From: an uncultured Bacteroidota bacterium
Lineage (GTDB): Bacteria; Bacteroidota; Bacteroidia; Flavobacteriales; Schleiferiaceae
Direction of reading: 5' to 3'
DNA length: 64,000 nucleotides
NCBI GenBank assembly: GCA_913057235.1
Contig: CAJXNI010000004.1
Location: forward strand, 62,001-126,000
The notes beneath the pieces were generated by a model. The model did not search any database, was not told the origin of the DNA, and worked only from the letters and a program-made list of their open reading frames with translations. This document shows, one piece after another, positions 4,002 through 21,273 of the stretch. Position 1 is the first letter of the stretch; each line of letters begins with the position of its first letter. Both the position numbers and the translations under genes were made by a program.

Positions 4002-4409
4002 ATGAAACTACTAGCCCCTGGCTCGCGCATAAACCTCCCTGAACTAGGTAAGGGGGTGGTTACCAACGTCACCAACCTTCATTACTATGTAAGTTTTATT
4101 GAAACGGGTATTGAAACCATCACGCTTGACGCTGATTTTGCAACCATTGAGGCTTTAGATTATGAGTTGGATTTAGTGAGCTTTTACGAAGTTGAAACCA
4201 GCCTAAAACACATTCTACAAAAGTGGAATGACCTAGGGCCCATGGTTACCAAAATAGCGGACAAGTGGAAGGGCGGCACTTTAAACTTAGCTCCGGCCGA
4301 TGCTAACCTGGGCAGCAAGGAGCTACCCATTGACACCTTTTTCCATAAAATAGTGATGGTGCGGGATAGGCTGCGCGTAATGGAGCAAAAAATTAATAGT
4401 AGCAATTAA
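4002..4409 (+). CDS. Conserved Bacteroidota protein of unknown function, prematurely stopped
   Basis: A 135-residue protein with a beta-rich N-terminus (PGSRINLPELGKGVVTNV, resembling small SH3/KOW-like barrels) and a helical C-terminus ending MEQKINSSN. I recognise it as a small protein widespread in Flavobacteriia, sometimes labelled 3-oxoacyl-ACP synthase in databases; nothing in the sequence supports that label. Its TAA (4407-4409) is followed in the same frame by 40 sense codons that continue the protein naturally (next entry). The window copy is therefore about three quarters of its expected length. It converges on the DUF58 gene at 4537. Function unknown. Confidence 0.75.
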   Translation: MKLLAPGSRINLPELGKGVVTNVTNLHYYVSFIETGIETITLDADFATIEALDYELDLVSFYEVETSLKHILQKWNDLGPMVTKIADKWKGGTLNLAPADANLGSKELPIDTFFHKIVMVRDRLRVMEQKINSSN

Positions 4410-4532
4410 GACGATGCCGAAAAGGTAGACCTACAACAGTACATTACCCGTATTTACGGCAGCCTTACCACTTTTAACGTACTTTTTAAAGACAAAGACA
4501 ACCACTTTGTGGGTAGCCGCAAGGGCACTTAG
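4410..4532 (+). pseudogene. In-frame C-terminal continuation of the 4002 gene beyond a TAA
   Basis: The frame of the preceding gene stays open for 40 codons after its TAA and stops at TAG 4530-4532. The peptide includes [19 protein letters not shown] and ends VGSRKGT. It has normal codon use and protein-like composition and no start of its own, so it is best read as the native C-terminus cut off by a nonsense mutation. Stop readthrough or a sequencing error would also explain it. Confidence 0.65.
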
Positions 4533-4536
4533 CCCC

Positions 4537-5865
4537 CTAAATCATGCCGCGGTTTTTAAGCTCCAAATAGCGATTAAGGGTATTTACATTTAAGTCAGCC
4601 GGTGCGGTAAGTAGGGCCTGAATACCCTGCTGCTCCAATTCTTGCGCCATTTGCTGCTTTTCCATTAAAAGCGACTCGGCCAGCCCTTTGGTGTAGATGG
4701 CCTCTACTGTAGAAGCGGGTTCTTTGCTGAGAGCCTCAATTTCTGTATTCTTAAAAAACACCACCAATAAAAGGTGATTTCGATTGATCAACTTCAAGTA
4801 AGGCAACTGCCTGCGTAGGGCATGAATGCTTTCAAAATTTGTGTAAAGTACTACCAAGCTGCGCTGACTTACCCTATACCTAAGCCAGCTGTGCACTGGC
4901 TTAAAGCTGCTTTCTTTATAGCTGGTTTTTTGGCGGTACAATTGTTCCATTAAGGTATTTAACTGACTGCCGCGATTGGCTGGGAGTACCTGCGTATTTA
5001 GCGTATTTTGAAAACTTACCAAGCCGGCTCTATCGCCCTTGCGTAAGGCAATATTGGCAATAACCAAGCTGGAGTTTATAGCGTAATCCAACAGAGACAA
5101 ACCTTCAAAAGGCATTTTCATGCTGCGGCCTTTATCTATGGCTAAGATTACATTTTGGCTTCGTTCGTCTTGGTAATGATTTACCATTAACTGGTTTTTG
5201 CGAGCGGTGGCCTTCCAATTTATTTTGCGGTAGTCATCGCCTGGAACGTAGTTTTCAATTTGCTCAAATTCACGGTTATGCCCGGCCTTTCTCAGCTTCT
5301 TAATTCCTGCGGTTACCAAACGGTTGCTAATAGCCAGCAGCTCATAATGCCGCATTTGCACAAAGCTGGGGTAAACCGCTACTTCCTTTTCTGAGGCCAA
5401 ATTGTACCTGCGCTGCACCAACCGGGCCAGCACACTCACAAATACACGCAATTGCCCAAAATGATAGGGACCCCTTTTCTTGGGCACCAAAGTGTAGGTT
5501 ATTTGTTGGGCTTCCGCCCGATGCAATGCCAGTTGAAAAGAATGATTGCGCTTTTGAAACTGCTGAGGCAACTCATCCAGCACGGTAAGATGCACCTTGG
5601 CCGGATACTGATTTTCCACCACCAGTCGCACGGTATTTTCATCTCCGTTTGAGAATTTATCGGCACAAAGCCGCTCTCCCTTTAGGGCGTCACTTCTAAA
5701 TAAAAAAAGTAACTCTAAAATGAACAGCAGGGCCAGAACAAAAAGTGCGGCATGGGCAAATGGCAACACAAAGGGTAACCAAAAGGCATTTAGATACAGC
5801 AGAATTATGGCTACTAACAAGCCGTAAAACCGCTGGGTAAGAAATATTTGTTTGAAGAATTGCAC
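4537..5865 (-). CDS. DUF58 protein (membrane-anchored, degenerate vWA)
   Basis: A 442-residue DUF58 protein. Two membrane helices lie near residues 14-58 and are followed by a beta domain. The DUF58 core GDDYRKINWKATARKNQLMV lies near 210-230, followed by a vWA-like region. The metal-binding DxSxS motif is reduced to IDKGRS, so the adhesion-site metal is probably not bound normally. It starts with GTG (5863-5865), whose first base is the last base of the MoxR stop codon TAG, so translation is coupled. DUF58 proteins usually partner MoxR AAA+ ATPases, as here; the client is unknown. It is the last gene of the leftward cluster that begins with spoIIM at 10547. Confidence 0.88.
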   Translation of the reverse strand: MQFFKQIFLTQRFYGLLVAIILLYLNAFWLPFVLPFAHAALFVLALLFILELLFLFRSDALKGERLCADKFSNGDENTVRLVVENQYPAKVHLTVLDELPQQFQKRNHSFQLALHRAEAQQITYTLVPKKRGPYHFGQLRVFVSVLARLVQRRYNLASEKEVAVYPSFVQMRHYELLAISNRLVTAGIKKLRKAGHNREFEQIENYVPGDDYRKINWKATARKNQLMVNHYQDERSQNVILAIDKGRSMKMPFEGLSLLDYAINSSLVIANIALRKGDRAGLVSFQNTLNTQVLPANRGSQLNTLMEQLYRQKTSYKESSFKPVHSWLRYRVSQRSLVVLYTNFESIHALRRQLPYLKLINRNHLLLVVFFKNTEIEALSKEPASTVEAIYTKGLAESLLMEKQQMAQELEQQGIQALLTAPADLNVNTLNRYLELKNRGMI

Positions 5866-6860
5866 TAACGGGGTACCTCAATTTTCTTTACAATTTGCTG
5901 CACGGCTTCACCCACGCTAAGGCCTTCCATCTCACGTTCTGGCGTTAAAATTACCCGGTGGTTAAGTACTGGCTCGGCTAAAAACTGCACGTCTTCTGGC
6001 GTAACAAAATCACGGCCCTGCAAAGCGGCCAAGGCACGGGCGCCCTTAAAAAGCGCCAAAGAAGCTCTGGGAGAGGCCCCCAAATAAAGAGCACTATCAT
6101 GCCGGGTGGCTTCCACAATTTTGGCAATGTATTCCAGTACGGGCCGCTCCGTATGAATTTTGGGCAGCAAAGCCTGCATTTCAAGAATATCTTTGGCGGT
6201 TAGCACCGGCTCTATACTTTTCACCGAAATTCCCTGAGCGGTATTGGCCTGCTCCAAAATGCCAATTTCTTCCTTCAAACTAGGGTAGCCCATATTAATC
6301 TTAAAGATGAAACGGTCTAACTGAGCCTCGGGCAGACGATAGGTGCCCTCTTGCTCAATGGGGTTTTGGGTGGCCAAAACCAAGTAAGGTGAATCCATGG
6401 CATGGGTTTGGCCATCTATGCTTACCTGACGCTCTTCCATCACCTCAAAAAGGGCGGCCTGGGTTTTAGCCGGGGCGCGATTTATTTCATCTACCAAAAT
6501 AAGCTGACTAAACACGGGGCCTGGTTTAAACTCAAATTCACTGGTTTTAAGGTTGTACACCGATGTACCCAGCACATCAGAAGGCATAAGGTCTGGCGTA
6601 AACTGCAAACGCCCAAAAGGCACCGATACCGAGCGAGCCAGTAGTTTGGCGGTAAGCGTCTTGGCAATACCAGGCACTCCCTCTAGCAGCACATGGCCAT
6701 CGGCTAAAAGCGCCACCAAAAGGAGGTCTACCGTTTTTTGCTGCCCCACTAAAATGCGGCCTATATTGGTTTTAATCTGATCTACCTGCTTGCTGAAGGC
6801 TTCCAGGTTTACGCGGCTGTTAAATTCTTGCGATTGGTCTTGATTTTCTTGGCTACTCAT
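5865..6860 (-). CDS. MoxR family AAA+ ATPase (first copy)
   Basis: A 331-residue cytosolic AAA+ ATPase of the MoxR group. It has Walker A GVPGIAKT (about residue 60), Walker B ILVDEINRAPAKTQ, a sensor 1 region LATQNPIEQEGTYRLPEAQ and a C-terminal lid with SPRASLALFKGARALA. MoxR ATPases act with vWA proteins as chaperones that remodel or insert metal into client complexes. Its ATG overlaps the stop of the DUF4350 gene (ATGA), and its own stop overlaps the DUF58 start, so the three genes form one translational unit. It is a distinct gene from the second MoxR at 23527. Confidence 0.95.
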   Translation of the reverse strand: MSSQENQDQSQEFNSRVNLEAFSKQVDQIKTNIGRILVGQQKTVDLLLVALLADGHVLLEGVPGIAKTLTAKLLARSVSVPFGRLQFTPDLMPSDVLGTSVYNLKTSEFEFKPGPVFSQLILVDEINRAPAKTQAALFEVMEERQVSIDGQTHAMDSPYLVLATQNPIEQEGTYRLPEAQLDRFIFKINMGYPSLKEEIGILEQANTAQGISVKSIEPVLTAKDILEMQALLPKIHTERPVLEYIAKIVEATRHDSALYLGASPRASLALFKGARALAALQGRDFVTPEDVQFLAEPVLNHRVILTPEREMEGLSVGEAVQQIVKKIEVPR

Positions 6861-17495: not shown

Positions 17496-18377
17496 TTAAA
17501 GATATTGCTTAAGCATGCTTTGGGCTTGCGTTTCATAGGCTCCCCCAAACAAATTTACATGCACCAAAACCGGATACAAATTGTGCAGATTTAAACGCTC
17601 TTGCCAATTAGTTTCCAGCGGAAACTGAGCGTGATACTGAGTAAAAAGTTCTGTAGGAAATCCGCCAAATAAATGCATCATGGCCAGGTCGGCCTCGCGG
17701 TGGCCATAATGTATGGCCGGGTCTATCAGGGCCGGTTCACCCTTTGGAGCTACCGCGTAATTGCCACTCCAAAGATCGCCATGCAACAGGGCCGGTGGAT
17801 CTTGCGGTACCAGGCTTTCCAGCCGATGATACAGCCTTTGGGCTTGAACGGTTAATTGGCTATTGAAATACCCTTGCTCACGCGCCATTTTAAATTGAGG
17901 CTCTAGCCTACATTCTACGAAAAAATCTACCCAATGAGCATGAGCCGTGTTGTCTTGCCGAAGGCTGCCCATGTAATTCCAGCCATCCCAACCAAAAGCT
18001 TCACGCGATTGCTGATGCATGGCAGCTAAATGTAAGCCAAAATCTTCCCAAAAACTTGGGGCCTTTTCTGAGGCCTCCATAAATTCCAAAACCAAAAAAC
18101 CCTGTCCTTCCCACTCACCGGTGGCTAAAACCTCAGGAATAAAAAAGTGGGTTTTTGCATTTAAATGCGCCAATGCCTGTGCCTCTTTCTCAAACATCTG
18201 TGGATAGCGCTCTGCATCATTGTATTTGACAAAAACGTTGCGATTCTCAAATTTCAATTGAACCGCTTGGTTAATGTCACCACCACTTAACCTTGAATAA
18301 TTTTTAAAAGCTCCTAACTTGGGGATTTGCTCTTGAAGCAGCTTAGGAAATGAGTCTAAGAACATCGTCTGAGTCAT
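17496..18377 (-). CDS. Fructosamine kinase family protein
   Basis: A 293-residue protein kinase-like fold enzyme of the fructosamine-3-kinase family. A beta-lobe with FVKYNDAERYPQMFEKEA carries the ATP-binding Lys and Glu. The catalytic loop is LLHGDLWSGNYAV, and the metal-binding motif is LIDPAIHYGHREADLAM followed by LFGGF. These enzymes phosphorylate the sugar of glycated amines so that the adduct decomposes (deglycation repair). The start could also be the Met at residue 5. It appears to be transcribed alone, downstream of the remnant sensor kinase gene. Confidence 0.92.
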   Translation of the reverse strand: MTQTMFLDSFPKLLQEQIPKLGAFKNYSRLSGGDINQAVQLKFENRNVFVKYNDAERYPQMFEKEAQALAHLNAKTHFFIPEVLATGEWEGQGFLVLEFMEASEKAPSFWEDFGLHLAAMHQQSREAFGWDGWNYMGSLRQDNTAHAHWVDFFVECRLEPQFKMAREQGYFNSQLTVQAQRLYHRLESLVPQDPPALLHGDLWSGNYAVAPKGEPALIDPAIHYGHREADLAMMHLFGGFPTELFTQYHAQFPLETNWQERLNLHNLYPVLVHVNLFGGAYETQAQSMLKQYL

Positions 18378-18417
18378 AGCTGTCTAGATAACGCCTAAGG
18401 CCTTGCCATTTAAAAAG

Positions 18418-18525
18418 TCAACCTTTAAGCATTTTAGCCTTGAACGGTTAGGCAATAAAATCGTTCATACCAGCATTTATGCAGCGTTTTTGGTAAGCCA
18501 CATCGGCAAATGATGCGATAGGTGT
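18418..18525 (-). pseudogene. C-terminal remnant of a response regulator receiver domain
   Basis: On the minus strand, one frame off the overlapping truncated sensor gene, 36 codons read TPIASFADVAYQKRCINAGM, then NDFIA, stop, then PFKAKMLKG and a stop. This is the end of a receiver domain: the T-x-A region of strand 4, the R-C-x-x-A-G-M-x-D-F helix turn, and the K-P motif of strand 5, in which the conserved Lys codon has become TAA. It marks the old 3' end of a hybrid histidine kinase whose middle was deleted. Confidence 0.7.
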
Positions 18526-19213
18526 AGAAAAAAGCAAAAAGTGCAAAAAACAGGAACGGGAGATCATTTCGCTGGAAATAAAATACCGTTAACGCAAAAA
18601 GGCCGGCAATGAGCAAGGCCCCTGCCACAAAAAGGGAATTGCTCTTTGAAAAGTTAAAAAGAAAAGATAAATGCTCATACGTCCCTAGTTGAAAAGGGTG
18701 CATGGGGACCCCTTTGAAGTGATAATTAGAAACGTGTAACACCAAAGTATTCGCCCCCTTTTGCAGATCTACCCGAGCCAGTTGCGGAAGCCAATACGGA
18801 TTAGAATGGTTGAGGCTGCTGCCTGGTTTTCCATTAGAGGCCACCCGCTCACCATTCATGTAAAGCTGGTAAGTGGTGTACACTTCCGGGACATAAAAAG
18901 CCATGTCTTCTAAAGCCTTCTCGCTGTGCAAAATGAGCTTATAACTGGCAAAACCCTGCGCTGCACCGTTAAACCTCAAACCACTGATATCATTCCAGCT
19001 TTGCGTAAAAGGCACCGTTTTATTAAGGGTGCTAATGGGCTGCTTTGGGTCTATAAATTTGTGCCAGGTAAAAGCCCACTCGCCTTTTAATTCAATACTG
19101 TTATCTGAAAAATCAGCCTCATTCAACCACAGCTCACCATCTTGCGCCAGCGGCTGTGCGAAAAGGCTGAACCCTCCCATTAAAAAAAGTATTATTTTAC
19201 AAATGATTTTCAC
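18434..19213 (-). pseudogene. Truncated 7TM-DISM-type sensor protein (remnant of hybrid kinase)
   Basis: The open frame codes 259 residues. It has a signal peptide (MKIICKIILFLMGGFSLFAQ) and a beta-sandwich extracellular domain like 7TMR-DISM extracellular 2 / glycosidase-like modules (IELKGEWAFTWHKF, YQLYMNGERVASNG, NTLVLHVSNYH). Then come the first two membrane helices, the second ending FFALFAFFYTYRII. After that the sequence turns into cysteine-rich nonsense (CRCGLPKTLHKCWYERFYC) in place of the remaining membrane helices and kinase. A receiver-domain tail lies in another frame over the same bases. I infer an internal deletion of the kinase portion. The product, if made, cannot signal by phosphotransfer. 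Confidence 0.75.
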
Positions 19214-19344: not shown

Positions 19345-21273
19345 CTAGTACTCCCCCCCTATCATTCGCTTATTCCATTCAGGTTTCTGTTCAAAAACCG
19401 GCAATTTTGAGGGTTTTTGGGTCAAGCCCGATGTGTCTGTTAAGGCCTCCATAAAGGCAATGAGTGCTTCCTCTTCACCGGGATTAAGGTTTAACGAGTC
19501 ACCGGGAAGGGTTTGCTGAGGCAAATCCAGGCCTAAGCCTTGCGCACCACCGTGGTTGTAAAAGTCCACTACCTGCTCTAAGGTAGTATAGGCGCCATTG
19601 TGGAAATAAGGTGCCGTAAGTGACACATTGCGCACCGTTACGGTTTTAAAAGAGTGCTTGTAAAAGTCTACCCGGTCAGCCGGGCGGCCGCTGGCATAAC
19701 GGCCCAGGTCTGGGTCTAAAGTATCACTGTTTGGTTGCGTGAGAACGCCCAGCACTTCGGTTTCATTTTCTTCAAAATAGGGCGGTACCAGACCGGCAAA
19801 GGTGGGGGCAAAATGGCAAGTACCGCAGGCCGCCTTGCCCATAAAAAGATTGAAACCATCCAGTACTTCCTGGTCTAAAGTTACCGCCTCGCCCCGCAAA
19901 TAACGGTCAACCGGTGAATTAAAGCCTTGCAAAGACAGCACGTAGGAAGAAAGTGCAGCCGAAAGCGTGTAACGGTTAATTTCAGCTGTAGTCTTTTCAG
20001 GGAACGCCTGCTTAAAAAGCTCTCGGTACTCACTACTCTGCTCTAAGCGGTTGAAAATAGTTTGGTAATTGGTGCCAAATTCATGGGCGTTAAAAATGAC
20101 GTGCTCCATTTGGCTGTCCATTTTATCGGCTCGCAAATCGTAGAAGAATTTTTCTGAAAAAATGGCATTCACCAAAGTAGGGGCATTGCGGGTAATGTTT
20201 TGCCCTTCTTTTAAAGATAAGCTAGTGGGGTAGCCATCGGTGAAAGCCAAATTAGGATTGTGGCAAGAAGCACAACTACGCTTTAGATTGGCGCTTAAAA
20301 TGGGATCAAAAAACAGGTGCTGCCCTAATTTTTGCAAGGCCGGGTTATCCATCTCATGGTACAGCGAGGTATAGAAATAAGGATTTAAAAAATCGGCCCC
20401 AAACATAGATTGTGCCTGATACTGCAAGGCGTTCTCACCTTCCACAACTTCGTCCATGGTTTCCACACCCAGGTATTGATGTAAAGCACCTATCTTTTTA
20501 TACATAGGGTCTAAAAACTCCCTGATAAACAGGGCGCGGTTAAAGGTTTGAAAATTTTGATGTTGGGCCAAATACTGTTCACCCTTCTTAAACAGGCTAT
20601 TCAGTTCTTGCGCTAAAGGCTCACCGGCCGATATTTGCAGGTAGGGTTTTAAAGCCTGGTGAATGCTTTGAAAAGCTACCCGATTTTCCGCCATGGTGTT
20701 AGCGCCCATAGGGGTGTCAAAACCCGTAAGGCCTAGGGCCATGATGCGCACCACGCCCAAGCGCGCGGCCTCCAATATATGCCGATCTTGTAAAATCAAA
20801 TGTTTTTGAAATTGCCAAATACTTTGACTGTTGGTCTGCAGGTCTTTGGTAAGGTCTACCAATGCCTGGCTTTGCAATTCCAGTTCCGCACCAAAAATCA
20901 ACTCTTCTAAAACTTGTAAGCCCTTGGGTTCCATCACCACCAGACGGGGTGCATTACGCTCGGTTTTGGGTAAAGGTGCGCCATTGAGGTAATCTTTCAC
21001 ATCCTGCGGTTGCAGGTAATCCAATAAAAATTCAATTTTTTTAAACTGCAGCCGCGTGGCAATTAGTTGATTTTGCAGCGCTTCTCGGTTGTTCTTTTCG
21101 GCATGATAGGTTTTTGCCAGCGCATACAATTCTTGAGTGTAGGTGTAAAACTGCTCTACCTCCTGCACATAATTGTTTTGGGTAAGCTGTACAGGGGCTT
21201 CCTTGCTTTTGAAGTTCACCAACACCAGCAAGGTGGCCAGAATAAATCCTACGGTCACTATTTTTTTACGCAT
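19345..21273 (-). CDS. Di-haem cytochrome c peroxidase (MauG/CcpA type) with N-terminal helical domain
   Basis: A 642-residue exported protein with an N-terminal signal anchor (about 5-21) and a helical domain to about residue 290. Two c-type haem motifs then lie within a peroxidase domain: CASCH in KRSCASCHNPNLAFTDG and CGTCH in GKAACGTCHFAPTFAG. These proteins reduce hydrogen peroxide or oxidise partners in the periplasm. The extra N-terminal helical part resembles the imelysin-like fusions seen in Bacteroidota peroxidases, but I hold that loosely. It lies downstream of the PhoX-like gene, with a strong hairpin between them, so some readthrough coexpression is possible. Confidence 0.88.
   Translation of the reverse strand: MRKKIVTVGFILATLLVLVNFKSKEAPVQLTQNNYVQEVEQFYTYTQELYALAKTYHAEKNNREALQNQLIATRLQFKKIEFLLDYLQPQDVKDYLNGAPLPKTERNAPRLVVMEPKGLQVLEELIFGAELELQSQALVDLTKDLQTNSQSIWQFQKHLILQDRHILEAARLGVVRIMALGLTGFDTPMGANTMAENRVAFQSIHQALKPYLQISAGEPLAQELNSLFKKGEQYLAQHQNFQTFNRALFIREFLDPMYKKIGALHQYLGVETMDEVVEGENALQYQAQSMFGADFLNPYFYTSLYHEMDNPALQKLGQHLFFDPILSANLKRSCASCHNPNLAFTDGYPTSLSLKEGQNITRNAPTLVNAIFSEKFFYDLRADKMDSQMEHVIFNAHEFGTNYQTIFNRLEQSSEYRELFKQAFPEKTTAEINRYTLSAALSSYVLSLQGFNSPVDRYLRGEAVTLDQEVLDGFNLFMGKAACGTCHFAPTFAGLVPPYFEENETEVLGVLTQPNSDTLDPDLGRYASGRPADRVDFYKHSFKTVTVRNVSLTAPYFHNGAYTTLEQVVDFYNHGGAQGLGLDLPQQTLPGDSLNLNPGEEEALIAFMEALTDTSGLTQKPSKLPVFEQKPEWNKRMIGGEY

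Follow-up and report, generated by a model that had tools for sequence, protein, structure and literature searches.

Remains of a 7TM-DISM-type hybrid histidine kinase, very probably a pseudogene with its middle deleted, in an uncultured member of the Schleiferiaceae

Results

A short frame at the place of a full-length sensor kinase

Does a short reading frame that begins like a sensor and ends in nonsense encode a small membrane protein, or is it what is left of a larger kinase? The frame in question (18434-19213, reverse strand, 259 codons from a GTG start) lies in a stretch of 64,000 nucleotides from an uncultured Bacteroidota bacterium of the Schleiferiaceae (GenBank assembly GCA_913057235.1, contig CAJXNI010000004.1, positions 62,001 to 126,000), here called the window; coordinates count from its first letter. 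The initial annotation, made from the letters alone, read this frame as an extracellular domain with two membrane helices and a cysteine-rich nonsense end, and proposed a hybrid kinase that had lost its middle. Both statements held: the frame and its AlphaFold model have these parts, and the syntenic orthologues are proteins of about 800 residues of which the window retains the two ends, out of frame with one another and with about 505 codons gone (Table 1). The locus is very probably a pseudogene of an approximately 800-residue 7TM-DISM-type hybrid histidine kinase whose middle has been deleted.

The gene order PhoX-like protein, di-haem peroxidase, kinase, fructosamine kinase, phosphoesterase is conserved in the related genomes G014, G052, G050, G048 and G047, and the neighbourhood is also matched, in whole or in part, in G016, G012, G040, G051, G007, G018 and G041. 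In most relatives checked, the order around the kinase is that of the window. The fructosamine-kinase gene starts before the kinase remnant ends, and the relatives show the same order and overlap. Since this neighbourhood is shared, the positional orthology of the kinase locus is secure. When named genomes were scanned with the PhoX-like neighbour as the query, an intact kinase was located at the equivalent position in CAJXKC010000001.1, CP051243.1, DLRW01000041.1 and CAKZJV010000007.1.

Table 1 Features of the kinase locus and its neighbours (window coordinates).
Feature	Position	Strand	Evidence
CCP_MauG di-haem cytochrome c peroxidase gene, intact, upstream	19345..21273	(-)	PF03150 (E 6e-43); synteny
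N-terminal remnant, 235 codons: signal peptide, extracellular jelly-roll (GH2-N-like, modelled) domain, TM1 and TM2	18509..19213	(-)	orthologue match, AF2, Foldseek
Deletion junction; about 505 codons (about 1.5 kb) of the ancestral gene gone	18507..18509		DNA comparison with orthologues
Out-of-frame Cys-rich tail past the junction, stop at 18434-18436	18434..18508	(-)	ORF list and translation
C-terminal remnant: last ~32 residues of the receiver and conserved tail KWQGLRRYLD...LRLIS, natural stop TAA at 18343-18345	18343..18507	(-), neighbouring frame	orthologue C-termini, shuffle control
In-frame TAA replacing the conserved KP lysine codon (AAG/AAA in orthologues)	18448..18450	(-)	DNA alignment
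Second in-frame stop, TGA, ten codons after the TAA	18418..18420	(-)	translation; counted in the G014 search
Fructosamine-kinase-family gene, intact, downstream	17496..18377	(-)	PF03881 (E 1.5e-80)

Two ends of one kinase and the junction between them

Alignment of both fragments to full-length relatives, the check proposed together with the initial reading, showed that they match one and the same hybrid kinase of about 800 residues. When the 800-residue G014 protein was searched against the window's genome, its residues 10-240 matched the N-terminal remnant (44% identity, E 2.6e-60) and its residues 742-800 matched the C-terminal remnant (59% identity, E 1.3e-13), with one TGA and one TAA counted in the latter. 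Searched the other way, among the relatives, the first 235 residues retrieved proteins of about 800 residues, including that of G014 (44% identity, E 3.5e-61). Twelve different orthologues each returned the same two pieces at the window locus. The spacing between these pieces is 504-506 residues in the orthologues, and the two remnant frames are offset by one base. In the DNA alignment with the orthologues, homology on the N-terminal side stops at ATT (18509) and homology on the C-terminal side starts at (T)GCC (18508/18507). This places the junction at about 18508, and not near 18525 as first proposed. No direct repeats were seen there, and the shared sequence amounts to 1-2 bases at most.

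On the scale of the G014 protein, residues ~241-745 have been lost, which comprise TM3-7, HisKA (414-478), HATPase (525-637) and most of the receiver (666-777). TM1 and TM2 are thus all that remains of the seven-helix 7TMR-DISM_7TM domain, the HisKA and HATPase_c core is absent from the locus, and the receiver is incomplete, lacking its phospho-Asp and having a stop in place of the KP lysine. A search of the window's genome with the G014 middle (241-741) found no close copy of the lost block elsewhere; the matches were only 21-35% identical, which indicates paralogues.

The sensor end

The AlphaFold model of the 259-residue frame comprises a helix resembling a signal peptide, a beta domain and a pair of long helices (residues 179-213 and 218-234), with a pLDDT of 87 over the N-terminal remnant, orthologues being present in the alignment. 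Beyond the junction the frame ends in the aberrant cysteine-rich stretch CRCGLPKTLHKCWYERFYCLTVQG. The frame was without any Pfam match, PF07695 included. With the model of the extracellular domain as the query, Foldseek returned GH2 beta-glucuronidases and galactosidases (best E 2.7e-7), and profile support for a GH2-like domain was weak (E 0.78). As modelled, the extracellular domain of this sensor resembles a GH2 sugar-binding jelly roll of the GH2-N-like type. The 7TM-DISM label given at first is apt for the membrane portion of the orthologous proteins, in which Pfam recognizes 7TMR-DISM_7TM (PF07695), HisKA, HATPase_c and Response_reg (one divergent copy has no HATPase match), and not for the extracellular part, which models as GH2-N-like. 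In the orthologues (e.g. L015:4111-6510) a GH2-N-like jelly roll, modelled and likewise without a Pfam match, is fused to the 7TM-DISM membrane domain and the hybrid kinase.

The receiver end

From about 18525 downwards, the neighbouring frame reads ASFADVAYQKRCINAGMNDFIA, a stop, PFKAKMLKG, a second stop, LFKWQGLRRYLDSYDSDDVLRLIS and a final stop. From 18507 this frame, one over from that of the N-terminal remnant, encodes the final ~55 codons of the hybrid kinase. A receiver tail in this frame had been recognized from the outset, as had the TAA in place of the KP lysine codon, which the DNA alignment bears out; the end assigned to the tail, 18418, has to be moved. Past the TGA another 24 codons follow in frame, up to IS-TAA, and they encode the C-terminal tail that is conserved in the family. 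The piece is 58-62% identical to the C-termini of the G014 and G007 orthologues (E 1e-13 to 2e-15). The initial annotation had named a receiver match no better than chance as grounds for dismissal: the tail scores 65-72 bits, and neither the remainder of the window nor any of 15 shuffles exceeds 24 bits, whilst the receiver piece alone has no Pfam Response_reg match (0 families at E≤0.1). Thus, the identity of the C-terminal remnant is proven by the full-length orthologues and not by a domain profile.

Distribution in the family

The kinase was matched in 24 of 88 family genomes: 20 carry intact frames of 778-837 residues, and the others are the window, G049, G057 and G022. An intact short gene among relatives would have spoken for a naturally short protein, and none was found in the 88 genomes. 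The short kinase frames of G049 and G057 were considered as parallel collapses and rejected, as both are cut by contig ends. In G022, which belongs to another genus, a single in-frame TAA (L019, G022:C8, ~4007-4009, reverse strand) follows 320 codons and the rest of the frame is open; it is either a sequencing error or a nonsense allele that arose independently. No kinase match came from genera g6, g11 and g12, whose genomes are small. Loss of the kinase may be recurrent and accompany genome reduction, divergence below detection being the alternative. Genomes with the fructosamine kinase and no kinase match had no remnant adjoining the fructosamine kinase. Scans of named genomes gave no relatives with the N-terminal protein and no conserved stretch with alignment A1, and there was no close relative among the matches listed in a metagenome scan.

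Rate of change of the N-terminal remnant

We compared the N-terminal remnant with three of its neighbours, the peroxidase, the fructosamine kinase and the PhoX-like protein, using a fixed tree built from these three proteins. The ratio of the branch of the window's genome to the rest of the tree was 0.243 for the N-terminal part (bootstrap 5-95%, 0.193-0.346), compared with 0.128, 0.146 and 0.111 for the peroxidase, fructosamine kinase and PhoX-like protein, respectively (bootstrap at most 0.182). On this lineage the remnant has therefore changed about twice as fast as the three neighbouring genes. Among sites of the N-terminal part that are invariant in all other sequences, the window departs at 8 of 59, and the other sequences depart at 0-2; in the neighbouring genes the window is not unusual at such sites. 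The SNxxHHKGG motif (SNF-HHKGG in the others) has become SNY-HFKGV, with one residue deleted. Both measures indicate relaxed constraint.

The 235 N-terminal codons contain no stops and no frameshifts. In simulations, the chance of finding no stop in 235 codons was 0.15-0.35 at 0.04-0.08 substitutions per site, a decay that would change about 9-16% of residues and is in keeping with the share of invariant sites lost. The open N-terminal frame is thus not proof of retention and not decisive, and neutral decay fits the data for the N-terminal remnant. Promoter and terminator scans at the locus gave nothing above chance.

Discussion

At both ends the locus is homologous to a full-length orthologue that is intact in the same position, and its lesions are disabling. 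We picture an illegitimate deletion of about 1.5 kb, probably a single event, that would have fused TM2 to the receiver's last third and put the two parts out of frame. It would have taken TM3-7, HisKA, HATPase and the receiver's phospho-acceptor with it, and with these lost signalling is impossible. Both ends now appear to be drifting, with two nonsense mutations in the tail and faster change and loss of invariant residues in the N-terminal part. The product, if any, would be a two-helix membrane protein of ~260 residues with a nonsense tail, probably degraded, and the remnant presumably has no function. Its 3' end is probably kept in part for the start of the overlapping fructosamine-kinase gene.

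It had been suggested that the truncated product might persist as a membrane decoy, and a decoy or helper that is still made and binds its ligand without signalling would account for the open 259-codon frame, for the finding of no stop in 235 N-terminal codons against two in 54, and for an extracellular domain that models well, albeit with orthologues in the alignment. Against this stand the roughly twofold acceleration relative to the neighbours, the loss of invariant residues including those of the SNxxHHKGG motif, the absence of the short form from all relatives in the family, and promoter-like sites that do not exceed chance. We therefore judge retention as a decoy or helper unlikely, at long odds, and longer still for the fuller proposal of a new two-helix membrane sensor-domain protein, encoded by the short frame and expressed as a ligand-binding decoy after loss of the kinase.

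The draft state of the assembly (49 contigs) invites the thought that an intact gene was collapsed or mis-joined. However, a mis-join would produce neither two nonsense codons in the tail nor an accelerated N-terminal branch, the junction has no repeat, and the missing middle is on no other contig; such an artefact is very unlikely. Equally, the genome holds other kinases and receivers, from which one could imagine that the gene was split and rearranged and that its kinase part operates from a different locus. That the best candidates for the orthologue's middle are paralogues, whereas the kinase middle is 39-74% identical among syntenic relatives, makes this extremely unlikely. Pseudogenization by deletion is the reading that we retain.

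Cases in which a single hybrid kinase is lost are already known, and the remnant is a real but ordinary pseudogene. The ladS gene of Pseudomonas aeruginosa PA14, a 7TMR-DISM hybrid sensor kinase with a sensor - kinase - receiver architecture, is naturally inactivated (PMC3245244). The lesion there is a duplication of 49 bp, unaccompanied by secondary mutations and judged to be recent, and the species has intact copies (PMC3245244). As in PA14 ladS, the sensing part is left and is followed by an out-of-frame tail (PMC3245244). Unlike it, the present locus carries a ~1.5-kb deletion and secondary stops, and the relatives compared belong to other genera. The intact syntenic kinases (for example that of G014, 800 residues; contig CAJXKC010000001.1, uncultured Flavobacteriales) share the N-terminus, C-terminus and neighbourhood of the remnant, but keep all seven helices, HisKA, HATPase_c and the full receiver. 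A keyword search of the literature for pseudogenized histidine kinases in Flavobacteriales found no paper.

Elsewhere in the same genome, outside the window (G000:C5:18600-20420; L045, about 4040-5960), frameshifts and stops break up a second 7TM-DISM sensor, and its kinase part is gone. The LytTR response regulator that comes next has likewise been split between frames and interrupted. In relatives the frames are intact, at 677-721 residues.

For annotation, the 259-residue frame is better entered as a pseudogene fragment than as a short membrane protein. The locus shows cleanly how a sensor kinase can die whilst its neighbours stay intact, and two broken 7TM-DISM sensors in one genome hint at a lineage that is shedding extracellular sensing.
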